In this document: positions 20,501-60,200 of the stretch, in pieces | How positions within the stretch are numbered: the first letter of the stretch is position 1 | Layout: the number at the start of each line of letters is the position of its first letter | Source of the DNA: Branchiostoma lanceolatum | Taxonomy: Eukaryota; Chordata; Leptocardii; Amphioxiformes; Branchiostomatidae | Assembly (NCBI RefSeq): GCF_035083965.1 | Contig: NC_089731.1 | Span: forward strand, 2,085,001-2,149,000 | Length of the DNA stretch: 64,000 bases | Direction: 5' to 3' | The notes under the pieces: model-generated | What the model saw: the letters and a program-made list of their open reading frames with translations, nothing else | Database searches by the model: none | Told to the model about the DNA's origin: nothing | Program-made: the position numbers and the translations under genes

Positions 20501-21295
20501 AGGGGACCATCTCAGTGTGAGTGGATGAAACCTTACAATTGGGTCTTTTGCAGCTTGTATTTACAAAACTGATAAAATTCGCCTAAAAGGGGTTTACCAG
20601 CTATGAAAAGCAAACAGTTTTCTACAACGTTTGTGAAGGTTAGACATCCAGGTAAACAATATATAAAGACAATTCAAACTCCATAACTGGATAAAAATTC
20701 GGAGATTTATTTCCGAAATCTGACTGGTGAAACTGACGGAAATAAATCTCCGAATTTTCATCCGGTTGTAGAGTTTGAATTGTCTTTATATAATTTTCTA
20801 CATACCGTGTCATCATATCCCATGAGCGCCCGTTTGGCTGTCTTCGGCCCGAGGAACCGTCTGACGAGCGCCTGCCAGCCCAGCGAGAACTGGAACTCGA
20901 TGTTCTCCGTGAAGTCGGCGCACAGGTTGTGGATGTCCAGGTGGAAGTTGGCCTCGAACGGCTCGCGGCGCACCAGGATCGCTGACGACTGCTCCAGGCA
21001 CTGTTGTCTCACCTCAGGGGGCAGCAAGGCCTCCATACGTTCTGGGGACATGGAAAGGATTGGTCACACTTAATCTATTAGTTCTCATCAGGAAAGTGTT
21101 GTTTTGGGCTTGTGTGTCTGTGCCTTTATGTAGGTGAGTGGGGGTGAGTGTGACTGTTTGTGTTTTTGTGTGTGTGCGCATGTGTGTTTGTGTGGTGTGT
21201 GTGACTGTGTGTATGTGTGTGATTGCACATGTGTGTGTGTGTGCGCGTGTTTGTGTGTGTGTGTGTGTGCGCGTGTTTGTGTGTGTCTCTGTGTG

Positions 21296-21362
<67 letters not shown>

Positions 21363-24300: not shown

Positions 24301-24528
24301 ATATTGAATAACTAGTCACACCTAGGCCCTGCATTTTTAACCAGACATTATTCAAACTATTTTGGATAGTGATATATTCCACAGCTAGTTAGTATAGTAA
24401 GTTTATTGATTCGATCATTCATTCATCGCTGAAGTACATGGCAGCGTCCTCAGAAAAGGATGCTGAATTGCGTACATTAGGCGTATTACATAGTAGCTAG
24501 TTGACTTGAATAAAAATTGATTGATTGG

Positions 24529-24565
<37 letters not shown>

Positions 24566-27500
24566 AGAAATGTAAAACTTACAGCCTCCATGAACTCCGG
24601 TTCGCTGGCGGAGGCGTCCCAGCGGTTGTTGAGGATGAAGATGTTGGGTTTGGACAGACGCTCGCTCACCGTGTGGAAAAAGTTCTTTTCCTGTAGATGG
24701 AAAGTAGAGCATTTATTCACCAGACCATTCCAACCAGCCTACTGTAATTCCTGTTTCTTTCACTGTAACTTTTATGTTCACTGCTTTCACAGTCATCTCT
24801 GCACCGTGAACTTTTCATCACCGTGAAAAAGCTGTTGTTATTATCTATGATTCCTTCACACATCCGTTCTGTAAATCACTTGCCGCCACCGTGAAGTTGA
24901 AATTCAGTGAAAATATCCATTTTCCTTACACTGAGAAATTTTGCTACCGTGAAGATAAAGTGAATTACAGCATTAGCTAGTAGGATGTCAGGGCGTCTTC
25001 TGGGTGCCTTACACTAAGACTACAAAGAAATAAAATGCCTTTCTTTTGCAGGGGACACCCAGATGACACCCTGTATCCCTAGGCCTGGTAGTTACATATG
25101 TACAGATGTTTACATCATGCTTGCAGCTTCTTAATATGTTAAAAGCTAATTCCTAGAGCAAAACTGCCCTGACGTGTGATCCCATACAGGCATGTTTCTG
25201 GCACAGCAGACTGCATAAGATACACAAAGTGCACCCTTTCCTAGTCTACTTTTCAGAAGTCTCACTTTACGGTTCAAAACAAGAAAAAGACGAACCAAAC
25301 CCCAAGACTTACCGTTCTCATGAGCGTGGACTCTGAGTTTGCCACCAACACGAACACGTCCGCGTCCAGGCAGTGTTCGTCTATCCAGCAGTCAAGGTCA
25401 GGGGTCACGTCGATACCAGGGCTGCAGGACAAAAAAATATAACATATTTTATCACATTGCAAAAAACACATTACAAGGTGTCCTCTAGGTGTCCCATGCA
25501 AAAGGAGGGTCTCTAATTTCTTTGTTTTCTTAATATAGGGCATCCAGAAAATGGCTTGGCGCACTACTGTTATCTATTGGCTTGGCTGTTCAGCACACAC
25601 CGCCGGGGCTGCCCAACTAGCCTATTGCTATTACAAAGGGCAAACCCTGCTGACAAGGACAAGACATTCCAATGGAATGTTGACATGGGCAGCATAACGA
25701 GCTATAACCATATTCCAAGTACATGTAGATAAAAACTATTGTTCATAAAAGATTCAAGATAATGTGTATAGAGTATCAAAAATAAATGATCCTAAAGATA
25801 CCCTACTACATGTAGCTTATAGCGCGGGTGCAACTTATGACTCAGCCAGGTAGGTACACCTGTCTGTCCCTCTCTTGTCTCACCTGTCTAACAAGACGAC
25901 ATCGTCCCTCAGCAGTGCACACCTGCCCTTGGGCCAGAACACCTTCACCAGCATGCTGCTGTCCTCAAGACGCTCTCCACACAGCGCGTGGGCCAGCTGA
26001 CCCACAGACTACAGAACAGGATCAAGAAACAAGTTAACTTACAACTCCAGCCAGTGTTCTCACCAGAATCTTTTCACAGCATAGGGGTTAGGTAAAGGAG
26101 GCCAACTTTACGTAACACAAGTCACGCACAGAGTGCCGAAGACATGACAAGAGTAGGGAGTCTGGTATGCTCCCAAGGAAAATCTTTAAATTGACCCAAT
26201 GAGGCACTATTTTCTACATTTTGAGGGATAAATTTGGTGAAGTAAAGTGTTTCCTCTGTCACAGCCTTATTCTAAAGCCAAATATGAACTTTTTATAAGA
26301 TTTATGAAGGGTCACAAGGTTCTCCCCAGAAAGAAAAACACCCCTATGCTGGTTGAAACACAGCATAGGGGTCCAGATCACAGCATAGGGGGTCCAAATC
26401 ACAGCATAGGGGGCCCCTATGCTGAAAAGGCCTGGCGAGAACACTGCCAGCACTTTATAGTGAATGTCAGTGTTTGGGAAAATTCTCCTTCTTTCATCGT
26501 AGCAAATTGGCTGCAAGCATCATCTCCCTCTAACACATATATAATTCTTCTTCTTTGGGGATAGGTGGCCAACTTCAACTTGCTGAAGGTTCTGCCACAC
26601 TGACAATGACATAATGTATAATACTAGTCAAAGGCATTCTGTAAAGAACCCAGAGAAGTTAAATGATGAGGTGCACAATTCACAAGTAAGTAAAATATCA
26701 ATATAAATGCTATAGACAAGTTAAAACGAAATGTTCCTCTCAAAAAAATTCCACCAGTACAGTTTTCTTGTTGTCAGAGTCAGGTGATTCTCATAACCAT
26801 TGTTTCCTACATGTAATAAACAAACTAACAACTCCAACCTGCACAGTTTTCCTGTCGTCAGAGTCGGGTGTGAGCAGGTACGCCTCGTAACCATCGCTCC
26901 CTACATGTAATAAACAAACTAACAACTCCCACCTGCACAGTTTTCCTGTCGTCAGAGTCAGGTGTGAGCAGGTACGCCTCGTAACCGTCACTCCCAACAT
27001 GTAATAAACAAACAAACAAACAAACAACTCTCACCTGCACAGTTTTCCTGTCGTCAGAGTCAGGTGTGAGCAGGTACGCTTCATAACCGTCGCTCTCTAC
27101 ATGTAATAAACAAACAAACAATTCCCACCTGCACAGTTTTCCTGTCATCAGAGTCGGGTGTCAGCAGGTACGCCTCGTAACCGTCGCTGTAATAAACAAA
27201 CAAACAAACAAACAACTCCCACCTGCACAGTTTTCCTGTCGTCAGAGTCGGGTGTGAGCAGGTACGCTTCGTAACCGTCGCTCTCTACATGTAATAAACA
27301 AACAAACAAACAAACAAACAACTCCCACCTGCACAGTTTTCCTGTCGTCAGAGTCGGGTGTGAGCAGGTACGCCTCGTAACCATCGCTCCCCTCCACATT
27401 GATGAAACAGTTGGTCGTGTGGCCGATACCGCTGGGGAGGATTTTGTCCCGCAGCATGGCATTCACTACCGTGCTCTTTCCATTACTCGTTCTGGGATGA

Positions 27501-37594: not shown

Positions 37595-38130
37595 ACTTAA
37601 TTGCAAACAACACTGAATGCATGGTATGCAGAGACAGTGCAGAGGAGGGCATGTAAGATAATCCTGAGACAGAACTACACCTGCTACAGCTCAGCCCTGA
37701 CAGAACTCTCCCTTACACCACTGGCCCAAAGACGACTAGAACTATGCAGAAGTTATGCCCGCTCCCTTCTGAGATCCCCGATCTTCAGACACTGGCTACC
37801 ACCATGCTGCGAGGCGATCTCCGGCAGAAAGACTTGGCCGTGTAGCCGGCTACAGACTTTTAGAGCAAATACTGTCAGGTTCACTAAGAGCCCCATTTAC
37901 TACATGGTAACCCTGCTGAACAGCACTGACTAGTAAGACATTATGACATTGAGATTTTAAATCCGAAGAATTTTGTAATTGTGATGGTAACAATGAAATG
38001 TTTTTATGTATATGTAAATTTGATTCTTGATAATGTAAACAAGCCTGTTAATTCAGCCCTAGGGCTGAGGCCTGTATCTGTTTGTCTACTGGACTGAATA
38101 AACCTGTCATCATCATCATCATCATGGTAA
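37595..38130 (+). mobile_element. 5'-truncated LINE with (CAT)n tail
   Basis: From about 37601 the frame reads ETVQRRACKIILRQNYTCYS, SALTELSLTPLAQRR, then LLRSPIFRHWLPP. This is the region after the reverse transcriptase in an L2/CR1-like LINE, ending with a stop near 37933. The 3' UTR holds GAATAAACCTGTCATCATCA and ends in seven CAT repeats (about 38106-38125). Confidence 0.75.
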
Positions 38131-38136
38131 GGTGTG

Positions 38137-39268
38137 CATCAGTACGTGGAGTTATCCAGATCCTCCTCAGTACCAGGTGAGTAGTTCATCTGGCTCAGGT
38201 AGCTGTTGAGGATCGGGGAGGAGTGGTGGTACAGTGATGGTACAGTGGTGGCACAGTGGTGGTACAGTGATGGTACGGTGGTGGTACAGTGATGGTACAG
38301 TGTGCATCAGTACGTGGAGTTATCCAGATCCTCCTCAGTCCCAGGTGAGTAGTTCATCTGGCTCAGGTAGCTGTTGAGGATGGGGGAGGAGTGGTGGTAC
38401 AGTGGTGGTACAGTGATGGTACAGTGGTGGTACAGTGGTGGTACAGTGGTGGTACAGTGGTGGTACAGTGATGGTACAGTGGTGGTACAGTGGTGGTACA
38501 GTGGTGGTACAGTGGTGGTACAGTGATGGTACAGTGATGGTACAGTGATGGTACAGTGGTGGTACGGTGTGCATCAGTACGTGGAGTTATCCAGATCCTC
38601 CTCAGTACCAGGTGAGTAGTTCATCTGGCTCAGGTAGCTGTTGAGGATGGGGGAGGAGTGGTGGTACAGTGGTGGTACAGTGGTGGTACAGTGGTGGTAC
38701 AGTGGTGGTACCGTGTGCATCAGTACGTGGAGTTATCCAGATCCTCCTCAGTACCAGGTGAGTAGTTCATCTGGCTAAGGTAGCTGTTGAGGATGGGGGA
38801 GGAGTGATGGTACAGTGGCGGTACAGTGGTGGTACAGTGGCGGTACAGTGGTGGTACAGTGGCGGTACAGTGGTGGTACAGTGGTGGTACAGTGATGGTA
38901 CAGTGGTGGTACCGTGTGCATCAGTACGTGGAGTTATCCAGATCCTCCTCAGTCCCAGGTGAGTAGTTCATCTGACTCAGGTACATGTAGCTGTTGAGGA
39001 TGGGGGAGGAGTGGTGGTACAGTGATGGTACGGTGATGGTACGGTGGTGGTACAGTGATGGCACAGTGGTGGTACAGTGGTGGTACGGTGTGCATCAGTA
39101 CGTGGAGTTATCCAGATCCTCCTCAGTCCCAGGTGAGTAGTTCATCTGACTCAGGTACATGTAGCTGTTGAGGATGGGGGAGGAGTGGTGGTACAGTGAT
39201 GGTACGGTGATGGTACGGTGGTGGTACAGTGATGGCACAGTGGTGGTACAGTGGTGGTACGGTGTGCA
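38137..39268 (-). repeat. 3' UTR array: repeated copies of the last coding segment plus GGTGGTACAGT minisatellite
   Basis: Six extra copies of the terminal exon end (plus-strand TGCATCAGTACGTGGAGTTA ... GTTGAGGATGGGGGAGGAGT) occur near 38139, 38307, 38571, 38714, 38927 and 39090. They are separated by blocks of a 10-11-bp GGTGGTACAGT/GATGGTACAGT unit. Each copy would encode SPILNSYLSQMNYSPGTEED and a stop, but all lie after the real stop at 39269-39271, so they belong to the 3' UTR or downstream DNA. Confidence 0.85.
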
Positions 39269-42200
39269 TCAGTACGTGGAGTTATCCAGATCCTCCTCAG
39301 TACCGGGTGAGTAGTTCATCTGGCTCAGGTAACTGTTGAGAATGGGGGAAGAGTGGTGGTATGGTGTGCCCAGGTCCGGCTGCCCGTCAAGGATGTGTGA
39401 GCTAAGGGAGGTGCCTAGTCCGCTGCTGGGTCTTGCTGAGACGAACTCCGAGTCTATCGACTGCGGGATGGACGTCAGCGATCTCGTGATGGCCTGGAGA
39501 AAATATATCAAAATACATCATTGTTGAAAATCATTTTCTTCACAAGCAGCAAAAATGGGGTAGGGAATTTCCCAAGCAGCCTTCGTAACCCCTGCTTCTC
39601 CTAATGGGTCAGTAAGTCAATACTTGTCTCAAGCATTGATATTTCTGACCTAGGGTGAAGAAATGCTGCAACAGTAACAATTGAGCCGCCTTTCTTCGTA
39701 AATCGATGGCAACATCAGGCTCTTACGAATTGATTAAAAATAAAAATCAGTCTGCAGGCCACTTTTCATTGCGGTCATGACAAAATATCCTTTTAAATTC
39801 AGTTCAAATGATTTTAGTTAGCCACCTTCTGTTGTAAGAAAGAAAAAAAAAGGAGAGCCAGTGGTGACTACAGAGGATGGTGCCCAGGCTAACGTTTAGT
39901 AGTCTGTCAGATAACACGTCATAAACAAATAAACTTCTCATTATGTTGGTGAAGGTTAGACATCCAGGTAATACATGTAATTGGTACACAATGCAAAAGA
40001 TACTCAAGCAACTGATTTTGTGAATGGTCTGTCACTCAGTCGTTTCAGGATGATCCACTATCTTTTCTCAGTAACTGACAGAGAAAAGTCTAAAGTCCAA
40101 CGAACCTCTCGCTGTTTCTCTATCCTGTAGTCTCGCACGAGTCTGTCCAGTCGGTCCTTCTGCCTGTTCAGGGCGTCAAGCCTCTCCTGCAGCTGCGAGT
40201 TCTCCTGTTCAAGAAACCGGCAGCGATACTCGCTGGAGGACACCGTTCGCTTCATGTCACGCACAGATTCATCCGCCTCTGTCAATCTGAAGAGAGAGAG
40301 AAGGAGGGAATGAATGAATGACTGGATGGATGGATTATCTCTCCTGTAGCTGCGAGTTCTCCTGTTCCAGGAACCGGCAACGGTACTCGCTGGAAGACAC
40401 CGTTCGCTTCATGTCACGTACAGATTCATCTGCCTCTGTCAATCTGGAGAGAGAGAGAAGGAGGGAATGAATGAATGACTGGATGGATGGATTATCTCTC
40501 TTGCAACTGTGAGTTCTCCTGTTCCAGGAACCGGCAACGGTACTCGCTGGACGACACTGTTCGCTTCATGTCACAGACAGATTCATCCGCCTCTGTCAAT
40601 CTGAAGAGAGAGAGAAGGAGAGAATGACTGGATGGATGGTTCACCTCTCCTGTAGCTGGGAGTTCTCATGATCAAGGAACCGGCAGCGGTACTCGCTGGA
40701 CGACACCGTTCGCTTCATGTCACGGACAGATTCATCCGCCTCTGTCAATCTGAAGAGAGAGAGAAGGAGGGAATGAATGAATGACTGGATGGATGGATCA
40801 GAGTCACCTCTTCTGCAGCTGTGAGTTCTCCTGTTCCAGGAACCAACAACGGTACTCGCTGGACGACACCGTTCGCTTCATGTCACGTACAGATTCATCC
40901 GCTTCTGTCAATCTGAAGAGAGAGAGAAGGAGGGAATGAATGAATGACTGGATGGATGGATCAGAGTCACCTCTTCTGCAGCTGTGAGTTCTCCTGTTCC
41001 AGGAACCGACAACGGTACTCGCTGGACGACACCGTTCGCTTCATGTCACGTACAGATTCATCCGCCTCTGTCAACCTGGAGAGAGAGAGAAGGAGGGAAT
41101 GAATGACTGGATGGATGGATCATCTCTCCTGAAGCTGTGAGTTCTCCTGTTCCAGGAACCGGCAGCGATACTCGCTGGACGACACCGTTCGCTTCATGTC
41201 ACGCACAGATTCATCCGCCTCTGTCAACCTGAAGAGAGAGAGAGAGAAGGAGGGAATGAATGAATGACTGGATGGATGGATCAGAGTCACCTCTTCTGCA
41301 GCTGTGAGTTCTCCTGTTCCAGGAACCGACAACGGTACTCGCTGGACGACACCGTTCGCTTCATGTCACGTACAGATTCATCCGCCTCTGTCAACCTGGA
41401 GAGAGAGAGAAGGAGGGAATGAATGACTGGATGGATGGATCATCTCTCCTGAAGCTGTGAGTTCTCCTGTTCCAGGAACCGGCAGCGATACTCGCTGGAC
41501 GACACCGTTCGCTTCATGTCACGCACAGATTCATCCGCCTCTGTCAACCTGAAGAGAGAGAGAGAGAAGGAGGGAATGAATGAATGACTGGATGGATGGA
41601 TCACCTCTCCTGAAGCTGCGAGTTCTCCTGTTCCAGGAACCGGCAACGGTACTCGCTGGACGACACTGTTCGCTTCATGTCACGCACAGATTCATCCGCC
41701 TCTGTCAATCTGAAGACAGAGAGAAGGAGGGAATGAATGAATGACTGGATGGATGGATCACCTCTCCTGAAGCTGCGAGTTCTCCTGTTCCAGGAACCGG
41801 CAGCGATACTCGCTGGACGACACTGTTCGCTTCATGTCACGGACAGATTCATCAGCCTCTGTTAATCTGGAGACAGAGAGAAGGAGGGAATGAATGAATG
41901 ACTGGATGGATGGATGGATTATCTCTCCTGAAGCTGCGAGTTCTCGTGTTCCAGGAACCGGCAGCGATACTCGCTGGACGACACCGTTCGCTTCATGTCA
42001 CGGACAGATTCATCCGCCTCTGTCAATCTGAAGACAGAGAGAAGGAGGGAATGAATGAATGACTGGATGGATGGATCACCTCTCCTGAAGCTGCGAGTTC
42101 TCCTGTTCCAGGAACCGGCAGCGATACTCGCTGGACGACACTGTTCGCTTCATGTCACGGACAGATTCATCAGCCTCTGTTAATCTGAAGACAGAGAGAA

Positions 42201-45200
42201 GGAGGGAATGAATGAATGACTGGATGGATGGATCACCTCTCCTGAAGCTGCGAGTTCTCCTGTTCCAGGAACCGGCAGCGATACTCGCTGGACGACACTG
42301 TTCGCTTCATGTCACGGACAGATTCATCAGCCTCTGTTAATCTGGAGACAGAGAGAAGGAGGGAATGAATGAATGACTGGATGGATGGATCACCTCTCCT
42401 GAAGCTGCGAGTTCTCCTGTTCCAGGAACCGGCAGCGATACTCGCTGGACGACACTGTTCGCTTCATGTCACGCACAGATTCATCCGCCTCTGTCAATCT
42501 GAAGAGAGAGAGAAGGAGAGAATGACTGGATGGATGGTTCACCTCTCCTGTAGCTGTGAGTTCTCCTGTTCCAGGAACCGGCAGCGATACTCGCTGGACG
42601 ACACAGTTCGCTTCATGTCACGTACAGATTCATCCGCCTCTGTCAATCTGAACAGAGAGAGAGAAGGAGGGAATGAATGAATGACTGGATGGATGGATCA
42701 CCTCTTCTGCAGCTGCGAGTTCTCCTGTTCCAAAAACCGGCAACGATACTCGCTGGACGACACCGTTCGCTTCATGTCACGCACAGATTCATCCGCCTCT
42801 GTCAGCCTGAAGAGAGAGAGAAGGAGGGAATGAATGAATGACTGGATGGATGGATTATCTCTCCTGAAGCTGGGAGTTCTCCTGTTCCAGAAACCGGCAA
42901 CGATACTCGCTGGACGACACAGTTCGCTTCATGTCACGTACAGATTCATCTGCCTCTGTCAATCTGAACAGAGAGAGAGAAGGAGGGAATGAATGAATGA
43001 CTGGATGGATGGATTATCTCTCCTGAAGCTGTGAGTTCTCCTGTTCCAGGAACCGGCAGCGGTACTCGCTGGACGACACTGTTCGCTTCATGTCACGCAC
43101 AGATTCATCCGCCTCTGTCAATCTGAAGAGAGAGAGAAGGAGAGAATGACTGGATGGATGGTTCACCTCTCCTGTAGCTGTGAGTTCTCCTGTTCCAGGA
43201 ACCGGCAGCGATACTCGCTGGACGACACAGTTCGCTTCATGTCACGTACAGATTCATCTGCCTCTGTCAATCTGAACAGAGAGAGAGAAGGAGGGAATGA
43301 ATGAATGACTGGATGGATGGATCACCTCTTCTGCAGCTGCGAGTTCTCCTGTTCCAAAAACCGGCAACGATACTCGCTGGACGACACCGTTCGCTTCATG
43401 TCACGCACAGATTCATCCGCCTCTGTCAATCTGAAGAGAGAGAGAAGGAGGGAATGAATGAATGACTGGATGGATGGATTATCTCTCCTGAAGCTGGGAG
43501 TTCTCCTGTTCCAGAAACCGGCAGCGGTACTCGCTGGGCGACACTGTGCGCTTCATGTCACGCACAGATTCATCCGCCTCTGTCAATCTGAAGAGAGAGA
43601 GAAGGAGAGAATGACTGGATGGATGGATCACCTCTCCTGAAGCTGCGAGTTCTCCTGTTCCAGGAACCGGCAGCGATACTCGCTGGACGACACTGTTCGC
43701 TTCATGTCACGGACAGATTCATCAGCCTCTGTTAATCTGGAGACAGAGAGAAGGAGGGAATGAATGAATGACTGGATGGATGGATGGATTATCTCTCCTG
43801 AAGCTGGGAGTTCTCCTGTTCCAGGAACCGGCAGCGGTACTCGCTGGACGACACTGTTCGCTTCATGTCACGTACAGATTCATCCGCCTCTGTCAATCTG
43901 AAGAGAGAGAGAAGGAGAGAATGACTGGATGGATGGTTCACCTCTCCTGTAGCTGTGAGTTCTCCTGTTCCAGGAACCGGCAGCGATACTCGCTGGACGA
44001 CACAGTTCGCTTCATGTCACGTACAGATTCATCTGCCTCTGTCAATCTGAACAGAGAGAGAGAAGGAGGGAATGAATGAATGACTGGATGGATGGATCAC
44101 CTCTTCTGCAGCTGCGAGTTCTCCTGTTCCAAAAACCGGCAACGATACTCGCTGGACGACACCGTTCGCTTCATGTCACGCACAGATTCATCCGCCTCTG
44201 TCAATCTGAAGAGAGAGAGAAGGAGGGAATGAATGAATGACTGGATGGATGGATTATCTCTCCTGAAGCTGGGAGTTCTCCTGTTCCAGAAACCGGCAGC
44301 GGTATTCGCTGGACGACACAGTTCGCTTCATGTCACGTACAGATTCATCTGCCTCTGTCAATCTGAACAGAGAGAGAGAAGGAGGGAATGAATGAATGAC
44401 TGGATGGATGGATCATCTCTTCTGCAGCTGTGAGTTCTCCTGTTCCAAAAACCGGCAACGATACTCGCTGGACGACACCGTTCGCTTCATGTCACGCACA
44501 GATTCATCCGCCTCTGTCAATCTGAACAGAGAGAGAGAAGGAGGGAATGAATGAATGACTGGATGGATGGATCACCTCTTCTGCAGCTGCGAGTTCTCCT
44601 GTTCCAAAAACCGGCAACGATACTCGCTGGACGACACCGTTCGCTTCATGTCACGCACAGATTCATCCGCCTCTGTCAATCTGAAGAGAGAGAGAAGGAG
44701 GGAATGAATGAATGACTGGATGGATGGATTATCTCTCCTGAAGCTGGGAGTTCTCCTGTTCCAGAAACCGGCAGCGGTATTCGCTGGACGACACAGTTCG
44801 CTTCATGTCACGTACAGATTCATCTGCCTCTGTCAATCTGAACAGAGAGAGAGAAGGAGGGAATGAATGAATGACTGGATGGATGGATCACCTCTTCTGC
44901 AGCTGCGAGTTCTCCTGTTCCAAAAACCGGCAACGATACTCGCTGGACGACACCGTTCGCTTCATGTCACGCACAGATTCATCCGCCTCTGTCAATCTGA
45001 AGAGAGAAAAGGAGGGAATGAATGAATGACTGGATGGATGGATCAGAGTCACCTCTTCTGCAGCTGCGAGTTCTCCTGTTCCAGGAACCGGCAGCGGTAC
45101 TCGCTGGACGACACTGTTCGCTTCATGTCACGTACAGATTCATCCGCCTCTGTCAACCTGGAGAGAGAGAGAGAGAAGGAGGGAATGAATGAATGACTGG

Positions 45201-48200
45201 ATGGATGGATCAGGGTCACCTCTTCTGCAGTTGGGAGTTCTGTTCCAGGAACCGGCAGCGATTCTCGCTGGACGACACAGAGCGCTTCATGTCACGGACA
45301 GATTCATCTGCCTCTGTTAATCTGAAGAGAGAAAGAAGGAGGGAATGAATGAATGACTGGATGGATGGATTACCTCTCCTGAAGCTGCGAGTTCTCCTGT
45401 TCCAGGAACCGGCAGCGATACTCGCTGGACGACACTGTTCGCTTCATGTCACGGACAGATTCATCAGCCTCTGTTAATCTGGAGACAGAGAGAAGGAGGG
45501 AATGAATGAATGACTGGATGGATGGATGGATTATCTCTCCTGAAGCTGCGAGTTCTCGTGTTCCAGGAACCGGCAGCGATACTCGCTGGACGACACCGTT
45601 CGCTTCATGTCACGGACAGATTCATCCGCCTCTGTCAATCTGAAGACAGAGAGAAGGAGGGAATGAATGAATGACTGGATGGATGGATCACCTCTCCTGA
45701 AGCTGCGAGTTCTCCTGTTCCAGGAACCGGCAGCGATACTCGCTGGACGACACTGTTCGCTTCATGTCACGGACAGATTCATCAGCCTCTGTTAATCTGG
45801 AGACAGAGAGAAGGAGGGAATGAATGAATGACTGGATGGATGGATGGATTATCTCTCCTGAAGCTGTGAGTTCTCCTGTTCCAGAAACCGGCAGCGGTAT
45901 TCGCTGGACGACACAGTTCGCTTCATGTCACGTACAGATTCATCTGCCTCTGTCAATCTGAACAGAGAGAGAGAAGGAGGGAATGAATGAATGACTGGAT
46001 GGATGGATTATCTCTCCTGAAGCTGGGAGTTCTCCTGTTCCAGGAACCGGCAGCGATACTCGCTGGACGACACTGTTCGCTTCATGTCACGGACAGATTC
46101 ATCCGCCTCTGTCAATCTGAAGAGAGAGAGAAGGAGGGAATGAATGAATGACTGGATGGATGGATTATCTCTCCTGAAGCTGCGAGTTCTCCTGTTCCAG
46201 AAACCGGCAGCGGTATTCGCTGGACGACACAGTTCGCTTCATGTCACGTACAGATTCATCTGCCTCTGTCAATCTGAACAGAGAGAGAGAAGGAGGGAAT
46301 GAATGAATGACTGGATGGATGGATCACCTCTTCTGCAGCTGCGAGTTCTCCTGTTCCAAAAACCGGCAACGATACTCGCTGGACGACACCGTTCGCTTCA
46401 TGTCACGCACAGATTCATCCGCCTCTGTCAATCTGAAGAGAGAGAGAAGGAGGGAATGAATGAATGACTGGATGGATGGATTATCTCTCCTGAAGCTGGG
46501 AGTTCTCCTGTTCCAGAAACCGGCAGCGATTCTCGCTGGACGACACAGAGCGCTTCATGTCACGGACCAATCTCCATCACTCTGGAGAGAGACAGAGAAG
46601 GGAACAATGACAAAATGAATGGATGGCTGGATCTGGGAGTTCTCCTGTTCTAGAAACCTGCAACGATACTCGCTGGACGACACTGTTCGCTTCATGTCAC
46701 GTACAGATTCATCTGCCTCGGTTAATCTGGAAGTTGAATGGAAAGAATTGTTATTAAACAATCATGTTTGTCTTTTATAAGTTATCATGGAAATTATTGG
46801 AATATTATTGCTCTGGTAGCATTTTCTATCGGTCATCCAGAAAGTTGAAATTTACTGTTAAACTAAGTTAGACACTTTTTCTGACCAATTTTCCCAACGA
46901 AAAGGTTTTTCATGACTCTCAAAGCTGTGCTTTAACCATAAGGCCAACTGCTGTCATAATCTTTTCTTTTTCTCACAAATCTTCAGCAGTTAATCAAGCC
47001 TACCTCGTTAGTAAATCTCTCTTGTCCTGCAGAAGCTTCTTGTGGTCGGAGTCGAGACTCTTCTTCCACTCGAGCTCCCTCTGCAGCTGGGACTTCACTC
47101 TGCCCAGCTCCTCCTCCGTAGACTGGACCGCTTCCTCCCGCATCCCCTTCTCTCGCTGGATAATGTCCCTGGGAGAAACAAACATGTGAACAAACAAACA
47201 TTAGTCTGTGAGACAGCTTATAGTTCATCTGTGGACTGGACCGCTTCCTCCCGCATCCCCTTCTCTCGCTGGATAATGTCCCTACAGAAAACAAACAAAT
47301 ATTAGTCCATGTGACTTCCACTTCCCTTACAGTCGACTTCTTCCCGTATCCCCTTCTCTCGCTGGATGATGTCCCTGGGAGAAACAAACAAATAAACAAA
47401 CAAGTAAACAAACAGTAGTCAGTGAGACTCTTCTTACAGCTCCTCCTCCGTAGACCGGACCGCTTCCTCCCGCATCCCCTTCTCCCGCTGGATAATGTCT
47501 CTGCAAGAAACAAATAAAAAAAGAAATAAACATTAGTCAAGGTAACTTTCACTTCTCACAAACTTCTTCCCTTCTCTCACTGGATAATGATAATAAATAA
47601 AAACATGTAAATTTCGCCCCCCTTACTGTAGACTTCTTCCCGCATCCCCTTCTCTCGCTGGATAATGTCCCTGGGATAAACAAACAACAAACATTAGTCC
47701 AAGGCATGTGACTTTCACTTCCCTTACAGTAGACTTCTTCCCTCATCCCCTTCCCTCGCTGGATAATGTCCCTACAACAAACAAACAGTAGTCAGTGTGG
47801 CATCTACTGTTCTTACAGTTCTTCCTCTGAAGACTGGACCAAATCAAGTCCCCGTGGGCCCAAAAATCCTGCTGTCTTCCCCCCGTGGATCAAATTCCCT
47901 AGATCTGTTGGCAAGGGTTTTATCGCAGACAAGGGATCATACTTGTCATTTTGAACAGTGAGGTAAAGTTATCAGCCCCATGTAAGAGGGAGCTTCTGGC
48001 TGAGCTTCAAGCATCAAACCTCTGCATGTAAAAGAACCAAACACAGGCATCGAGAAGACTAGGGGTGACGGGTGTGCTTGGCTAAATACAGCCTTTTACA
48101 GGAGCTTAGTTTTAGCTTCTTTTCATGGCAAAACTACAGTAATAGAGAGAAGATTTTGGGTAGCTTGTGTGGCCTTACTTTGCCCTGTTGATCTTGTTCT

Positions 48201-51200
48201 TGTACTTGAGCTTGCGCTGGTCGTATCTCCGGATCTGCAGGTCCAGTTTGCTGGTCGCCTCGACGACCTGCCGCTGCAGGGTTTCCACCTCCTGCTGCAG
48301 GGTTTGGACTTGCCGCAGCATGGTCTGCTTACCTATCTGTGATAGCTGGTGCTGCAGTAAACAAACAAGTAAACAGGTAAACAAACAAGCTGCCGCTGCA
48401 AAGTTTCCACCTCCCAGGGTTTGGACCTGACGCAGCATGGTCTGTTTACCTAGCTGTGACAGCTGGTGCTGCAGGAAACAAACAAATAAGTAAGCAAACA
48501 AGTAAACAAACAGGTAAACAAGCTGCTTCTGCAGGGTTTCCACCTCCTGCTGCAGTTTGCTTGCAGTCTGCTTACCTAGCTCCGAGATATTGTGCTGCTG
48601 TAAACAGGAGGTAAACAAGTAAACAAGCTGTTGCTGCAGATTTCCACCTCCAGCTACAGGTTCTGGACCAGAAGCATCCTTGCAATCCGGAGTGCAAAAT
48701 ATTGTGTGCAAGTGCAACAGACACATTGTGCACCTTTCGTAGTTCAAGAATACTTAAAAATATCATACAAGGCAGGAGAAATGGTGGATTTCATGTATTT
48801 TATCATGATAACAGTAACGAAACAATGATATGATCGTCAGTTTAATAACTCACTTTTCCTGAAGACTGTTGCAAAATGCATGGAATGTTTGCAAAGAAGG
48901 CAGATAATATTAATAAGTTTGTGCCTAGTATAGAAGGTGGCTCAGAGAATCATCAACATTACATAGTTACAAAATTGCAACTAGATGATCTGGATTCAGT
49001 TCCTTCTCAAAATGAATCAGTTCTTTGTCATGGTTAGACCATCACACAAGTTAACATTGAATTTCATAACTTTTTAAGCTGTCCACAAACACAAAAAAGT
49101 GTAAGGAAAGCATAACCTTGAAGCAGGCAATAAAAGTTTGCCATTCTTCCAGCAGAATAGCTCATTGTCTCACGACCTTGACCTGAACTATAAAAAATGA
49201 CTTGACATATAAATGACCTTAACTTGGCATGAACATGACATGGGGCTGACATGGTGTGTAAATGACCTTGACCTAACATAAATGACCTTGACCCACCATG
49301 TCTGCCACAGACTTGTTCTCCTCGTCCACGGACATGACCTTGTGCTGCAGCTGGGAGTTGGTGACCTTCAGCCTCGATTCCAAGTCCCTCAGCTGACTCA
49401 GCTCCTGCCGCGCACTCTCCAGCTGCTGGTCTGACCGCACCCTGTTGCCATGGCAACATGAAACAATTTTAGAGCGGTACTTAGACAACATAAAGGACTG
49501 GTAAAAAATCAGGGCACATCAAGGCATAAAGTGTGAGTGTAGAATTTTACAAAAAAGCACCATCTGCACATAAAGAAACACCCCTGTCCTTGATGCTGAA
49601 CACCATTCACACACATTCAAATCACACCTGTCCTTGGTGCTGAACGCCATCCACACACAAAGAAACACCCCTGTCCTTGATGCTGAACACCATTCACACA
49701 CATTCAAATCACACCTGTCCTTGGTGCTGAACACCATCCACACACAAAGAAACACCCCTGTCCTTGATGCTGAACACCATTCACACACATTCAAATCACA
49801 CCTGTCCTTGGTGCTGAACACCATCCACACACAAAGAAACACACCTGTCCTTGGTACTGAACACTATCCACACACTGGAAAACACACCTGTCCTTGGTAC
49901 TGAACACCATCCACACACTGGAAAACACACCTGTCCTTGGTACTGAACACCATCCACACACAAAGAAACACCCCTATCCTTGGTGCTGAACACCATCCAC
50001 ACACAGGAAAACACACCTGTCCCTGGTGCTGAACACCATCCACACACAAAGAACCACCCCTGTCCTTGGTATTGAACACCATCCACACACAGAAAAACAG
50101 ACCTGTCCTTGGTGCTGAACACCATCCACACACAAAGAAACACACCTGTCCTTGGTATTGAACACCATCCACACAGAAAAACACACCTGTCTTTGGTGCT
50201 GAACACCATCCACATACAGGAAACACCCCTATCCTTGGTGCTGAACACCATCCACACACAGGCAAACATACCTGTCCTTGGTGCTGAACATCCACACAGA
50301 TAAATACACCTGTATGAAGGTGTTCAGCACCAGGTTACCTGGATGTCTAATCTTCATAGACGTAATAAAAGCAATATCTTTTTTTTAAATATTTTTGAAG
50401 GTCAAAGTTATTTTCCAACCTGTCCATCTTCTCCTCCTGAAGTTGTCTCCTCAGCACCGCCAGGTCATTGTTTTTCCTCTCCAGCTCATCCTTGGACCTC
50501 CTGGCCTCCTCTGCGACTCTCTGGAGCTTGAACTGGGACTCCTTCACCTGGCAGACAACACGTAGAGTTAGAAAGGCCGTAATCTTTATAGCTAACATAT
50601 CTTGTGCCTTCATAAATCATCACTTATATAATCTTATGATATATCAATCAAGAGGGGTGATAAGAATGTAATTGAGGGCTAATTTGCATTGTCATGAATC
50701 AAGCTCTATCATTAAGAAAACTGTGTCTGGTTTGTGTTTCAATCATATTAGCTTGATTCTTAATTCTTTGAGCTAACTTGAACACTAAATTATCAAAGAT
50801 CTCTGTCCAAAAATCTTCCTGCTTAGGTTCACTCAAGTGCAAAAAAGACATCTATATATATTTGCAGACACAACAAACAAGACTATACTATAAACTCTCA
50901 AGTCAGGAATCTCTCAGCCAGCACACTAACCTGTCTCTCGGCCTCCTCTGCCCGACTTCTGGTGGCCTCCACAGACTCTCTACTGGCCTGCCGGCTCTTG
51001 ATCTGGGGAAAATAACAAGCACATGACAGCACATCAACTTCTTTGTGTTTTCGCTGAAGAATGCAGTGTGTTATCTTCTGGTTCATTCTATTTGCTACAT
51101 ATATATATATATATTATTCAATTTGGTACAATTTCATACTTTGATGTTTGGCACTTCTGACTTTTGGATGAATGTTCAGTTGGATTTTAACTGTTAGGCC

Positions 51201-54200
51201 ACAAGATGATCAAGTGGATAGGGGATTCAATGTTCAGTTAAGAACAGATATAACACAGGGTAAAGGTCATTAATGTGACAAGGTCAGGTGAAGGTCATTG
51301 GCGTGACAAGGTCACGTTCTCACCATGTCCAGCTGTTGCTTGAGCTGGTCCCTCTCAGACTCTGCACGGGAAACTCTCTCCAAACCCTCCTTCATCTGGC
51401 CCCAGACCTTGATGTACAAAGGGATAAACAACACACAAACATAAATAAACAAACAAACACAAACAGTCTAACTCAGCACGAGAAACTCTATCCATGCCAA
51501 CAATACCAGGTCCTGGAAGTCTGTAGCACTTGTCCCAGTTGACTTAATAAAGTAAAGTTCAACTTGTGATATGCAAATGTGAGCCAAAACCTAGCATTGT
51601 AAGACAATTACGATTCACAAGAAACGTTCGTAATATTTGAGATAGCTCTTTATTTACCATAAGAAAATTACCTAATAGTACAGAAAGCAGTACAGTTCAT
51701 GCAGTTAGTCATGTTTTTGTGTGGATGAGGTGTTTAATGATTGAACTTAACAAGGAAATGTGGCCAAATGTTACATGACTTGCGTTGATCAGGTTTCATG
51801 GAATTAACACATTCAAGAAAAGTGGAATTAACACAAGAAAAGACCATACACAAACTCAACTCTGTGGATTACAAACCAAGTTGGTGTGTATGGCCTGAAA
51901 GTTAATAAAAGCTCTACCTAAAGGTAACTCACCACACACAACAGAAGAGAAGTCCATGGAGTTGTGGGTTGGAATGGGGGTGGGAAGGAACACGTGGTGG
52001 GAAGGGAAGATGAGTCAGATATAAGATAACATGAAATGCTCTATGGTTAGTGATGTTAATGGTATTAAAGACTTTAGTAGCAATGATAGCTACACTAACT
52101 GTCTTAGTTAAGAAAAGTGAATACTGACTCAGAGGCAATGATACCTTTTTTTATATTTTTTTCCAAATTTAAGTAAAGCATGAGGCATATTTGACATTAC
52201 ACGACAGTTAAAAAACTTGTTTCGTAATAATGGCTTAATCATCAAGACATGCAGTTTACATATACGTGACAAATAGACAATTTTGAAATACTGTAAATGC
52301 AGAAATGTTCGCGGTGGTTTTATGTTCGCGGTTTTCGCAGTGAACTATTCCGCGCGAACTCAAAACCAACGCAAACTTTTTGCCCACCTATGACTGTAGT
52401 GCTACTATTGTTTCAAACGTGAACTTAAAACCACCGCGAACACTCCATTTCTCCCTATCACAAAATAAAAACCACACGAACTTAAATGCTTTTACAGTAG
52501 GCAGTGATCTATTCAAGTAACAAAATCTAGGAAACAATCTATGGCAGTACCAATAATAATCAATAAATTCATTTTCGTAGGTCTCAGACAGTTTGCCAGA
52601 GGACAACATGAAAAGAGAGATCTGAGTGGGAAATTTACATCTGACTATATTAACATCCTAAAACTTTGTGTACCAAGGTACAGACTGCCCCCTCAGACTC
52701 TGTTTTCATGTGTATTTTCTCGATTAAAGTACGCACCCCAATTAAAGTACGCACCCCTGATTTGGGGCTAGTTCTAGACAAATTTGCAGAACTGAAATGT
52801 TAAGGCAAAAATCCCAAATAAAGTACGCACCCCTTCTCCACTGATCTTGAACAAATTTTGAACAGGATAAGTTAACATTTATGGTGTTCCTCCTATTATC
52901 TCCAAGTCATTTTTCTTATATCAAGGACTTCTACATACTGTAGAGTAATGCCATTCCTTAGATTCATAAAAGATTCTCTTGCTTTCTCCGCCAGCATTGT
53001 CTCTGCAAACTTGAGGATTTTGCAAATTGGCAGGTATTGAGCCATGCATTGTTGCATCGCAGCTGGGTTCCTGGTTTGATTAAGCAAGGGTTTGAGGTCC
53101 TTTTCCAATTTGTCCTGGCAATAACCTCAAATAAAGTGCGCACCCTGACTTTAGCAATGACCTGTGGTGCCTTTTGAATTTTGAAATGTTTAAAAAGTGC
53201 ATACTTTATTCGAGACAATATTGATCTTCCAGTTAAGTTTTTAAAGTTTTTTTCCCAATCTAAGAACCAACAAAGTGAATCGGAGTGGCCTACCTTGGAG
53301 ATCTCCTGTTCCAGCATGTTGTTCCTGTCCTCGGTGTCTTGTCGGAGGCGTTTTTCTGCCTCCAGTTTAGCCTGGAGCGAGGAGGTGTCAGACTGAACCC
53401 TCCCTGTCTGGACATGGGCACTGTGCAGCTCCTGGAAAATATGGGCTTTGATAAATAACAACTTACAAATGTAAACATACCTGCCCTTGGTGCTGAACAT
53501 CATCCACACACAGACATGTCCGTGGTGCTGAACATCATCCACAGGTAAACACACCTGTCCTTGGTGCTGAACACCATCCACACACAGGCAAACACACCTG
53601 CCCTTGGTGCTGAACACCATCCACACACAGGTAAACACACCTGCCCTTGGTGCTGAACACCATCCACACACAGGCAAACACACCTGTCCTTGGTGCTGAA
53701 CACCATCCACACAAACATAAACACACCTGAACACCATCCACACACAGGCAAACACACCTGTCCTTGGTGCTGAACACCATCCACACACACACACCGGTAA
53801 ACACACACTAGCATATGGAAAATCCATAATGCAGAAACACAGACAAGCAAGCAAACAAATAAATGCAAACAAACAAATGAACAAACCTGGTTCTTTGCGT
53901 CCAGCTGAGTCCTGAGGGAGTCACACTGCGCCTCCGCCTCCTCCAGTCGTGTCTGTGCGGAGCCCGTCTGAAGTTTGGACCGGCTCTTTTCTCTCTCCAG
54001 CTGGGACTGAAGGTCGGCAACTTCTGACTCCAGACGGGACTGGGAAATGTTATGAAATGAGCTATAAGTTTATCATCATTCACACAGAACTGAATTTTCT
54101 TCATTTTCCTGCTACATGTATGACTAAAGATCACCATCAGGAAATGTAATGATTCTATTAGTAATACATTTATTGTCTATTCATCCACATCAACACACTG

Positions 54201-57200
54201 GCTTTTCTTCTCTCGCTCGAGACTGAAGATCGGCAATTTTTTACTCCAGACAGGACCAAAAGTCAGCATTGAGTTTATTCCTCATTTGGAGGAAGTTCTT
54301 TATACAACACAATAGCAGCATTGAAAGAAAGGAAAGGAACGAACGAACAAATAAACGACTATCGTGACTGTATTTTGTTCCTCTGGTGCAGAAAATGTGT
54401 CCAGCGAGGTCTCCAGTTCAACACAACGAATAAATCAAACAAATAAACAACGAACAGAACTGTGCACACCAGTTTGTCGCATGGTCCATGCCTCTGATGC
54501 AGGAAACGACTATGTCCTGTGAGGTCTCCAGTTACACAATAAATACATAAATAAAACAACTAGACAACAGACAGAACTTTACGCACCAGTTTATCGCGTG
54601 TTTCGTCCCTCTGCTCCAGAAGCTGCCCACTCAGACGGCTGACCTGGTCCCGTAGGTTTGCCGTCTCCCGCCGAGCGTTACTGGCGCGCTCCGTCGCCTC
54701 CTCTAGCTGTGTGGACAAGTCTGGGGAACAGGGCGGAGACAGATTGAAGTTTAGACAGCACAAAAATTATAATCTTTTATAGATGGCATCTTTCCCACTG
54801 TGATGTTTTATCTTAAAGCTCGTTCTACTTGTTAGATTTGCTAAGAATTTGCATAGCCTCTGTTACTTGTGATATCATTTAAGGTCGATTAAGGTAGGGT
54901 CATGTGTTGAATTTGTATTGCATTCATTAAATATAATAGTATTAGAAAAGGACTTTAGGAAGACCAGTAGGCACATGATGTATTTTACTAGTAGAGATTC
55001 TAAATAAACACTAACAAATCTGAAGTGTCAGTGTACACAAAATTGATAGAGATCAGGTGAGTCTACTACCTGTAACCCACTTGTCACCGAGTCAACCATA
55101 CGAGGCATCCATACCACCTGTAACTAACCTGTTACACCTGTGACCTGTAACTCACCTGCGTTGACGTTTTTCTGCAGTTGCACTGTATCCCTGAGGTCAT
55201 CACACGACTGTTCTGAACTGGCAAGCTGAAACAGAAACAACATGTCGATGTTTAGAGCATTTCATCATGGATTTTTACTAGAAATGTGATGATATCAAAC
55301 TTGAATTTTGTGTGGTACAACCACCTGTTGACAACTGTCACCAATTGGTATAACAGAAATTTGGGGGAAATTTTTCAAGTGGGACTAACTCAACAAAAAA
55401 AGCTTTTTCAGGTTTCAACAACATGCACCAATTACGTCATGAAGAGTAAGTATATTATGTTATAATTGTTTCTGTTATTGGGGTGGCCTGACTACTCTCA
55501 CGTGACAAATATGTATACAAAACAAGGTTGATGAAGGTTAGATATCCGGGTAATAAGACACGCGAAAAATCGTTACTCAAGCAACTGGATAAAATTTTGA
55601 AACAGTCAGACGTTTCAGACAGCATCTGCTATCTATTGTCAGTTAAAAGAAAGGTTCTGGCTGTGGATTAGAAGGAGGGAAAAAGCCTGGGGGAAGGAGA
55701 CAGCAGAAGTACAACAGTGGAAAGGCTTAAGGAGCAGCAGTGAGGCAGGGTGGAGACGTCCTCCCTGTCGTCCCCCCCATCCCGAGGGCGTACCAGAGTA
55801 CGAGGGATGAAACGTCCAGTGAAGAAGGGGCCTCTGGCTGATGATCACAGCTGACTCCTTGGTGCCACGTCAAGTGGCACTTGCTACCTGGCAGGTGAGA
55901 ATAAGGTAGAACTGCTGTCCGAAACGTCTGTTTCAAAATTCTATCCAGTTGCTTGAGTAACGATTTTTGGCGTATACAAAACAAGGGACATCTATCAAAC
56001 TCTACCAGGACCAACATGATATTACATTTTACAGCCTTTAAAGGCAGGCTAAACTTAATTTCGTAAAGCATACTGCAGTATGTTAAAATATACCACTAAG
56101 ACCAGTTCTGACTTCTTTTACATGAGTCCATCATAGATTAGCGTTTTTACAATATTTGAAATTCGCGGTGTGGTGATGCAATACTGGCGATGTCCAAAGA
56201 CCTTTGACCTTTGTGACGTCAGATTCTGAGTCGGTCACACCTGCACCATAGGAATTGCTCCAGACGCCATTCCTCCGACTCGGAATCTGACGTCACAAAG
56301 GTCAAAGGGCTTTGGACATCGCCAGTATTACATCACCACACCGCGAATTTCAAATGTTGTAAAAACGCTAATCTATGATGGACTAGTGTACAACAAGTCA
56401 GAACTGGTCTTAGTGGTATATTTAACATACTGCAGTATGCTTTACGAAATTAAGTTTAGCCTGCCTTTAAAACACTGAAAGTCTGAATTGAGATATCAAA
56501 CTGAAAAGTATTGCTAAACAGTAGGCACCTTTTCCTCCAGATGTTTGTTTGTGTCCTCCAGCAGCTGACTGGTCCTCTTCAGACCCTCCCTCTCACCTTC
56601 CATGCCCTGTAGTCTAGCAGAGAGCTCCGATACCTGGCAAACATTCAACAACAAAAAACACATGAAACCCAACAAAAAAATCTATCCATGACATGTTGCA
56701 GTAAATTGAAGATCATAGAAATGATTCAATCATACCACGGGTTTTAACAATGTAGTTCAGCAACATAATGTGAACACTTACGGAATGGGCTAGATAATAT
56801 TGCCTTATTTCAATAAAAGAAACAAATGGGAATTCGAAGTAGACAATAACTTGAATAAGGACAGTCTTGAATAACTCACAGAACACAATGTACTACATGT
56901 ATCTCAGCCCCAAAACAGATTGAAATGTGTCAATGCCACCTATAGTCCATAGATTTATGGACAACCGTTCAAATGACACCTGACAACAAAAGCAGAGAAC
57001 ATAGAATACAAAATGACTTGTTGTTAGCTGATTGGAGATTACAGAAATGCTTTAATCATCCTACAGAATAACAATGTAGTGCAGCAACATATTGTGAACA
57101 CTTATATATGTGCAATATCACTAATTTCAATGCAAGAAAGAGATAAATAATGAATTCACAATGAAGATGCTTGAATAACTAACAAAATGTACAATAATGT

Positions 57201-60200
57201 AGTACTACATTGTCCTGTACTCCAGCCCCCAAAACAGAAATGTTTCAACAACATCTATGGAGTCTATAGATTCATGGACAAAATAAACTTGGTTTAGCAA
57301 CGAATTCATAACTCTTAGTCATAATTACACAACTCTAGTAAAATAAGACATACTTTAGGTGTATAAGAAACAGATACCAGTCTCCAGCCCACCCGCACTG
57401 CCAACAGGTTTTCTCACAGTGAACGACACCAGAAACAAACAACATTCCTGCCAGATCAATGCTGCTGTCCTATCTGATTATTTAACTATAAACACTTTCC
57501 CACAGTGTACAAACTTGTTACTGTTACAGTAACAGTTACAGTACAGTGGATCCATGGAGAGGTAAACAGTGATGAATCATACATTGTGGTTAGTTACTAC
57601 AGGACCTGGTGTACATGTATGGTACTGTCATGAAAATACATCTAGATCTTTTTTGGGTAGGAAAATTGAACATGCTTCATTTAAGAGAAATCCGAGAATT
57701 TGAGTGTCTTTAAATGGCTTATTTTTGCATGTTTGTTCATTTTTAAGAGATGACATGGACCAATGGATACTAAGGTCTTAAGATGTTTAATTTCCGATAT
57801 ATGATTTATCAAAATTTGACATTCCTCTTTGTCCTTGAATAATTTATCATAATCAGACAAAGAAATCCCCCAAATTTGTCCAAATGAATGAAGACTGAAG
57901 ATAGAGGTTTAAAGGTGAAAGGTTGAGGTTTAAAGGTGATAGGTTGAGGTTTAAAGGTGAGATGTTGAGGATTAAAGGTCAAAGGTTGAGGATTAAAGGC
58001 GAAAGGTTGAGGTGACTGCTGGTTGGCCGACCTTGTCTCCCTGGTCATGGGACTTGTGTTGAATGTGCAGCAGTTCTCTCTCCCGATTGGCCGCCTCCAG
58101 AGCCAGCTGGGCGTCTCGGGTTTCCTTCTTTTGTTTCTCCACTTTGCTCTGCAGCTCCTACAGTGACAGAATGGATGGATGAATATTGAACGAATGAACT
58201 TTATCACTCACAATCATACATGGTATTACATGATGCGTCTCATGTCTGCGCACTCTACCTCTAACCACATCTGGTTCAAATTCTGTGGAGCCAGCGGCCC
58301 GAGTTCAGACGCGGGCTTGGACTCGACTGGAAAAGATTTTAATTGTCCTATCGAATGGTGATGTAAAGCTGGCGGCTCTGTGTATGAGGGAGCGTCAAAA
58401 CCTCTGCATGTAAAGGAATTCAGCACACTTAGAAGAGTAGGGGTGACGGGGTTTGCTTGGCCAAAAATGTGTGATTGGTAGCAAGGCCACATTGCAATAG
58501 TCATTTACTTTGTCTAATAGCTAATGAAATTTACACGACACTAATTATACCGCAAGGCTAATCATTTCCTACATTATAGAACTAGAAATTATCAATAACT
58601 ATACATTCACAGCAAATTCATGAGACTGAAAATATGCATCTTTGAATCGTTTCAACTTCGATTACTTAAACAATGCGAAAACATCCTTTCCCCTTCTGCC
58701 TCCTGACAAAATCCTGACAGAAAATAAACTAAATTCGAGTATTTTGACAGGCGTGTGAAAAGAAAAAAGGATTTGTACCATTTTCTCCTGCTGGAACTGA
58801 GACTTGAGGTCGTCCAGGTCTCTCTGCAGCTGCTGTCTGTGTTTGGACTCCTCGTAAATCTTCTCCTGTAGCAGCGTCTTCTCTGTCTCTAAGGAGTTCA
58901 CCTGAGGTAAAGACAGTAAAACTTAAGTCTTCTCCTGTAGCAGCGTCTTCTCTGTCTCTAAGGAGTTCACCTGAGGTAAAGACAGTAAAACTTAAGTCTT
59001 CTCCTGAAGCACCGTCTTCTCTGTCTCTAAGGAGTTCATCTGAGGTAAAGACAGTAAAACTTAAGTCTTCTCCTGAAGCAGCGTCTTCTCTGTCTCTAAG
59101 GAATTCACCTAAGGCAAAGATTTAAAACACATCAAAACAAATAAGTCTTCTTCAGAATCTGTAGCAGCATCCTCCGTCTGCGTGTGCGCTCCCTCCCTCC
59201 CTCTCTCCATCCCTCCCTTCTCTCCCCATCACTCCATCCCTCCCTCACCTCCTCCTGTAGACTGTGCAGCCTCTCCAGCTGGACCTGTGTTTCCGACACC
59301 TGGGTGCTCATCTCGCGGCCCCGTGTGCGTTCCCTCCCTCCCTCCCTTCCTCCCTCCATCCCTCCCTTACTCATTCCCTCCATCCTTCCCTCACCTCCTC
59401 CTGTAGACTGTGCAGCCTCTCCAGTTGGACCTGTGTTTCCGACACCTGGGCGCTCATCTCCCTGCCCCGTGTGCGTTCCCTCCCTCCCTCCCTCCCTCCC
59501 TCCCTCCCTCCATCCCTCCCTCTATCCCTCCCTCCCTTACTCCTCCATCCATCCCTCTCACCTCCTCCCGTAGACTATGCAGCCTCTCCAGTTGGACCTG
59601 CGTTTCCGACACCTGGGTGCTCATCTCCCTGCCGCATGTGCATTCCCTCCCTCCCTCTCTCCATCCCTCCCTCTATTCCTCCCTCCCCCTCACTCCTTCA
59701 TTCCCTCACCTCCTCCTGCAGACTGTGCAGCCTCTCCAGCTGGACCTGTGTTTCCGACACCTGGGTGCTCATCTCTCTGCCGCGTGTGCATTCCCTCCCT
59801 CCCTCTCTCCCTCCCTCTCTCCATCCCTCTCTCCATCCCTCCCTCCCTCCCTTACTCCTCCATCCCTCCCTCTCTCACCTCCTCCTGCAGACTGTGCAGC
59901 CTCTCCAGCTGGACCTGTGTTTCCGACACCTGGGTGCTCATCTCCCTGCCCCGTGTGCGCTCCCTCCCTCCCTCCCTCCCTTCCTCCTTCTATCCCTCCC
60001 TTACTCTCCCTTCCCTCCCTCCCTCCCTCACCTCCTCCTGCAGACTGTGCAGCCTCCCCAGCTGGACCTGTGTGTGTTTCTGACACCTGGGTGCTCATCT
60101 CCCTGCCCTGTGTGTGCTCCCTCCCTCTCTCCATCCCTCCCTCATTCCCTCCATCCTTCCCTCACCTCCTCCTGCAGACTGTGCAGCCTCTCCAGTTGCA

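Follow-up and report, generated by a model that had tools for sequence, protein, structure and literature searches.

The stretch analyzed here, called the window below, is 64,000 nucleotides of the genome of the amphioxus Branchiostoma lanceolatum (NCBI RefSeq assembly GCF_035083965.1, contig NC_089731.1, positions 2,085,001 to 2,149,000), and all coordinates are positions within it. Two genes concern us, both on the minus strand: a coiled-coil gene at about 63.9 to 39.3 kb, cut off by the window edge, and a mitofusin gene farther downstream, at about 28 to 18 kb. Our main subject is a tandem array in an intron of the coiled-coil gene, in which the start of one exon is repeated about 41 times. 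The array is confirmed and is of a kind already known, the amphioxus mirage. What appears to be new, and is a finding worth following, is that the exon-like copies vary almost only synonymously, including copies that would lie outside translation.

The concatenated peptide of the coiled-coil gene matches the Pfam profile PF15742/DUF4686 (8.4e-24, residues 472-765), which we take to be a domain of CCDC30-type proteins, and the 35 residues encoded by the repeat (731-765) are the exact end of this match. A 50-residue piece of the mitofusin gene matches solved structures of mitofusin-2 and -1. NCBIfam profiles gave seven matches, every one far under its curated cut-off. As one would expect of an animal gene, no match came up for the exon in a phage collection or for an exact pattern of the unit in prokaryote genomes.

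An array of exon-edge copies in the coiled-coil gene

The array is real. It lies on the minus strand, in the intron between the exons at 47004-47168 and 40106-40286, and consists of 41 partial copies (40287-46740) upstream of the true exon (40106-40286, 181 nt), each about 157 bp long and made of about 105 nt of exon start plus a spacer. Tandem Repeats Finder (TRF) places it at 40181-46731, with a period of 157, 41.7 copies, and an 89% match, in agreement with the earlier note on this DNA, which had counted about 41 partial copies every 157 bp. When cut at the exon start, the array falls into 42 units: u01a (46582-46726) and u01b (46433-46581), a changed pair at the far edge (46433-46726); u02 to u40; and u41, which is the first 105 nt of the true exon. 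The junction and spacer are changed in both members of the far pair; u01a keeps its codons, and u01b is without the exon start. From sequence alone, u41 would be the only copy that is a functional exon edge.

The exon-like part of u02 to u40 is 105 nt throughout, with the sole exception of u09 (102 nt). Entry and exit both fall within a codon and in matching phases, and the unit peptide (consensus R followed by LTEADES VRDMKRT VSSSEYR CRFLEQE NSQLQE+R) forms five heptads, much as the earlier note had described for a 35-residue unit. The two flanking exons that it named were recovered by a simple splice-chain search, with phases that fit. An AG precedes all 41 scored unit starts (u01b was not scored), and a GT donor stands at the junction of 23 of the 39 internal units, u02 to u40, leaving 16 without one; the latter count bears out the earlier reading of a donor in about 23. 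The spacers, which had been put at about 52 nt, span 44 to 62 nt and are 52 or 54 nt in 22 of the 39. That reading had missed an in-frame stop (TGA or TAA), which is the codon after the last arginine of the repeat in all 39 internal units.

One can envision a role for these stops, in which splicing into the array acceptors would give truncated messages, or messages sensitive to nonsense-mediated decay, that tune the gene, with the stop as the functional point. The acceptors are strong and first in line for transcription, and the stop is kept 39 times out of 39 through its TGA and TAA variants. However, there are few mutations at the stop at all, which makes its retention weak evidence; such poison exons would not need conserved amino acids, and similar constraint is seen in other arrays. 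We consider this explanation very improbable.

Codon-level pattern of the array copies

Across the 34 codons compared in u02 to u41, the variable sites fall at codon positions 1, 2, and 3 in the numbers 9, 0, and 20. The variants comprise 27 synonymous changes for 68 opportunities and 9 nonsynonymous changes for 241 (p 3.3e-13; since units share ancestry and each variant is counted once, this and the other p values are guides only). Synonymous divergence (pS) is 0.268 and nonsynonymous divergence (pN) is 0.0116, with a spacer divergence of 0.062. The same peptide is encoded by 22 of the 39 internal units, and 10 more differ by E34K only. The pattern does not follow the donors, with pN/pS at 0.038 in the 16 units without GT and 0.047 in the others. 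The earlier note had offered, as one alternative, a satellite whose exon-like parts and spacers change at equal rates, which the order of these values (pN 0.012 below spacer 0.06 below pS 0.27) contradicts. It had also suggested comparing how well frames and donors are kept relative to the spacers; this holds for the frames (pN 0.012 versus 0.06), but junction donors are found in only 23 of 39 units.

Variants were judged in their own codons, by which the TTG (Leu) at column 95 of u39 is synonymous. The figures above come from the gapped set of u02 to u41 (27 synonymous, 9 nonsynonymous, no variable second position); an ungapped set (n = 40, including u01a with its foreign tail and lacking u09) gave 28 and 12, with one variable second position. 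A 15% rule dropped 2 of 42 rows in this main array, 2 of 7 in the last-exon array, and 1 of 4 in the mitofusin 20.1k array, the latter two described below. Decay of CpG sites as the cause of the synonymous bias is ruled out, because the bias persists in non-CpG changes: scored against the consensus codon, there are 13 synonymous and 3 nonsynonymous non-CpG transitions (opportunities 31 and 54) and 5 and 5 non-CpG transversions (opportunities 22 and 148).

Variants present in at least two units are 19 synonymous and 2 nonsynonymous, and those in a single unit are 7 and 7, even so more synonymous changes than the opportunities alone would give (p 0.017). The weaker bias of the single-unit variants is what might be seen if the arrays were young, their copies recently thrown off by different functional alleles from a deep exon-allele pool and carrying the synonymous differences of those alleles. 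The combination of high divergence at synonymous sites with low divergence at both nonsynonymous sites and spacers, here and in the mitofusin arrays, fits this as well. However, synonymous changes are favored even among the single-unit variants, allelic differences would be expected in the spacers too unless these were constrained, and pS values of 0.13 to 0.27 are several times the allelic synonymous diversity (piS) of 0.04 given for B. floridae (PMC12862219). On balance, we find an allele pool doubtful as the source of the pattern.

Other exon-edge arrays in the window

The main array is not alone. Of 11 tandem arrays with a period of at least 60, 9 overlap an exon-intron edge, compared with 4.7 by random placement (p 0.0057), and 10 do so when the stop end of the last exon is counted as an edge (p 0.00085); all fall in two genes, the positions of the mitofusin exon edges are approximations, and the arrays were picked by hand from the TRF table, with overlapping rows merged. 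Among 11 checked arrays with a period below 60, 2 (23588-23652 and 24516-24564) touch an approximate mitofusin edge. All arrays described below are on the minus strand.

In the mitofusin gene, the 27.4k array (26806-27391) lies at a donor edge and has six copies with identical peptides and one degraded far copy; the functional edge and its copies (six in all) differ by 7 synonymous and 0 nonsynonymous changes. For these copies to be exons, splicing over 34 to 46 nt would be needed, and by homology the repeats would enter the GTPase domain. The 137-bp array at 20.1k (19640-20093), also at a donor edge, has four copies, the farthest degraded, and three of the four give 5 synonymous and 1 nonsynonymous change. 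More generally, exon-edge arrays were observed in this gene (18238-28250) at 18.2k, 19.6k, 21.9k, and 26.8k, with the copies farthest from the functional edge degraded at 19.6k and 26.8k.

In the coiled-coil gene, the last-exon array (38124-39361) holds seven copies of the C-terminal codons plus stop, six of them beyond the stop taken as functional. Five of the seven give 7 synonymous and 0 nonsynonymous changes, most of which set the first copy apart from the rest. All seven give 8 and 10 (p 0.02), the two added copies being out of register through a 6-nt insertion; in the part after this insertion, the seven differ by 4 and 0. At the other end of the host intron, the exon at 47004-47168, predicted to splice to the true exon, has its own acceptor edge repeated upstream (47169-47830), in six aligned copies including the exon and a degraded one near 47.6 kb; this 47.2k array shows 4 synonymous and 2 nonsynonymous changes. 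A donor-like GTAAG comes after several of its acceptor-edge copies, and in one case this makes a 63-nt unit of symmetric phase. The 60.2k array (59189-60253; six aligned copies and a seventh with an insertion), which sits at the donor edge of an exon that ends at 60166, shows 9 and 2. There are also 117-bp arrays at the start of exon 48179-48351 (48268-48539) and at the donor edge of exon 54587-54720 (54398-54613), and a 69-bp array of four copies at an exon's acceptor edge (58855-59120), with a unit length divisible by three and one minus-strand frame that stays open across copies.

All 66 scored copies keep intact the splice site in use at the functional edge of their array (AG in 41/41, 6/6, and 4/4 at three acceptor-edge arrays, GT in 6/6, 6/6, and 3/3 at three donor-edge arrays), a count that omits u01b, the degraded far copies of the mitofusin 27.4k and 20.1k arrays, the seventh 60.2k copy, and the degraded copy near 47.6 kb; of the 39 internal units in the main array, only 23 have the extra junction donor. 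In the other arrays, 15 of 23 copy spacings are not multiples of three, which bears only on an unspliced reading. Units without GT are clean, a similar bias recurs in arrays whose copies can hardly be exons, and the used site is conserved; the codon pattern is therefore not proof of translation. Selection seems to act on what the functional position exposes.

Proposed exchange with the functional edge

Within the main array, 47 of 91 site pairs fail the four-gamete test, there are 10 exact block repeats of 251 to 431 bp, and the 40 units u02 to u41 carry 26 distinct exon-like haplotypes. Turnover has therefore been recent and has included multi-unit steps. In the mitofusin 27.4k array, as exchange predicts, the functional edge is identical to the aligned copy lying farthest from it and not to its neighbors.

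Mirages are amphioxus minisatellites that straddle exon-intron borders, at either exon edge, and they are known in Adh3, globin (BflGb6 and BflGb9), troponin C, and PGBD5 genes; many, not all, of their copies have AG/GT signals (PMC3087553, PMC3902484). By the authors' reverse transcription-PCR they apparently do not interfere with regular splicing, and they have been put forward as a possible origin of new introns and exons (PMC3087553). The array described here is likewise a tandem repeat across the border of a predicted exon in Branchiostoma, a cephalochordate. Its unit of about 157 bp resembles those of the globin mirages (150 to 160 bp in BflGb6 and 157 bp in BflGb9), its AG/GT signals are also partial, and it too shows concerted evolution with excluded boundary copies, as seen in the block repeats, the four-gamete failures, and the different u01a and u01b. 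It differs in having about 41 copies over 6.5 kb, versus 6 and 3 units in two BflGb6 haplotypes, in that the codon constraint of the copies was measured, and in the several arrays found within the same two genes. A codon-level pattern in mirage copies was not found reported in the portions of the amphioxus mirage literature consulted. Ordinary intronic minisatellites share the tandem turnover, block duplications, and simple-sequence spacers, but here the unit includes exon sequence filtered at the codon level. The suggestion in the earlier note of a satellite grown from an exon edge is thus supported, as a known amphioxus phenomenon.

We think it probable that this is a very large amphioxus mirage whose copies exchange with one functional exon edge and that selection acting there filters every copy. 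The repeat unit would join the 3′ end of the intron to the first 105 nt of the exon that follows. Copies swap sequence among themselves, as the mosaic haplotypes and long exact block repeats show, and they would exchange with the functional edge as well, through unequal crossing-over or gene conversion. Any change that alters the protein or the splice site in use would be purged array-wide as copy lineages traverse the functional position, while synonymous changes and sites never exposed, such as the extra junction donor, would drift. The phase symmetry and five heptads may be by-products of where the repeat was cut in a pre-existing coiled-coil exon. Non-crossover conversion tracts in amphioxus are mostly below 200 bp, about one unit length (PMC12500494).

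A toy Wright-Fisher model (12 units and 60 or 150 haplotypes, each setting run 4 to 6 times) gave a pairwise nonsynonymous/synonymous ratio (N/S) of 0.98 with one selected unit and no exchange, and of 0.037 and 0.022 with stronger selection on one unit and very frequent exchange. The exchange model can work, and it needs frequent exchange; the arrays outside translation speak for exchange.

A number of results weigh against this model. Only those two settings with one selected unit reached 0.02 to 0.04; most with exchange gave 0.2 to 0.6, and one with almost no synonymous differences gave 3.8, which means little. When degraded far copies are included, the main array is less biased (28 synonymous, 36 nonsynonymous, p 6.7e-6), and the mitofusin 20.1k array loses its bias (6 and 14, p 0.34); the 58.9k array (58855-59120) has no significant bias (2 and 2). 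The far-edge unit u01a, expected to exchange least, differs from the consensus by 10 synonymous and 0 nonsynonymous changes. Filtering by exchange alone gives no account of why the main array diverges more at synonymous sites (0.27) than in its spacers (0.06). The same excess is found in the mitofusin 27.4k and 20.1k arrays, though not in the 47.2k and last-exon arrays, and the two values are about equal at 60.2k; the 60.2k and last-exon spacers are of low complexity and align poorly. The B. floridae piS cited above, far below the pS of the main array, is also a difficulty. Many exchanging copies, taken as a family, may have an ancestry deeper than that of one locus; the excess in three arrays is unexplained by any account tested.

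Splice-site strength is a further point on that side, and it bears on the proposal of the earlier note that the GT units are real cassette exons, with variable splicing adding multiples of 35 residues to make the coiled coil a length ruler. The array acceptors outscore those of other exons in the gene model, and the scores of the junction donors fall among those of real donors, so that some units may be spliced; the splice-chain search passes through all 23 GT units as well, because each scores positive on its own. A 105-nt unit of symmetric phase and five heptads, with AG and GT both in 23 of 39 units and a conserved protein sequence, is what such a ruler would look like. Simulated selection on all units gave N/S of 0.014 and 0.009, fitting the low observed ratio at least as easily as exchange does. 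However, the 16 units without GT are equally protein-clean, the possible introns of 44 to 62 nt compare with a shortest intron of 321 nt outside the arrays (in a simple gene model that misses some exons), and a missed donor would lead directly into the in-frame stop after every internal unit. Similar constraint is found where copies can hardly be exons, and published mirages seem not to disturb splicing (PMC3087553).

Tandem cassette or mutually exclusive exon arrays are a class of repeated exons, and they share with this array the exon-like units with acceptors, the many donors, and the symmetric phase. Here, in contrast, the peptides are near-identical, the spacers are 44 to 62 nt long, and a donor and an acceptor are not found in every unit, GT being absent from 16 of 39. 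A coiled-coil ruler is unlikely, and the array copies are probably not used as exons.

Other observations in the window

All five Rfam mir-2060 matches in the window (86 to 94 nt) lie on two intronic minisatellites of the coiled-coil gene with units of 43 bp (49558-50290 and 53488-53789), and the annotated mir-2060 "miRNA precursor" appears to be about two minisatellite units, of which there are many copies. To our knowledge, the Rfam mir-2060 family is confined to Branchiostoma. The bbe-miR-2060c-3p of B. belcheri (PMC5650284) has eight matches with one mismatch in the window, and on the strength of these two results the sequence by itself would very probably be assigned to Branchiostoma.

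Elsewhere, a direct duplication (5223-7838 and 9501-12566, about 4.3 to 4.7 kb apart) shows 97 to 98% identity in three sampled 300-nt stretches. The reading frame at 11784-12218 presumably resembles the end of a reverse transcriptase. The segments 2947-3111 and 3348-3512 apparently consist, by eye, of one 42-bp repeat in opposite orientations, forming a large inverted minisatellite repeat.

Implications

If copies do exchange with the working edge, one can imagine, tentatively, a larger role for these introns: they might store copies of exon edges that are not translated in place and are kept protein-perfect by repeated swaps with the working edge, a bank of interchangeable, synonymously diverse templates that rewrites the exon. 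The boldest form of this idea adds that some tissue splices the 23 GT units, so that the length of the coiled coil could be adjusted. The codon-position pattern is a test that needs only sequence and is applicable to all mirages in any amphioxus haplotype. It further suggests that a preserved frame need not mean translation where repeats trade sequence with a functional copy.

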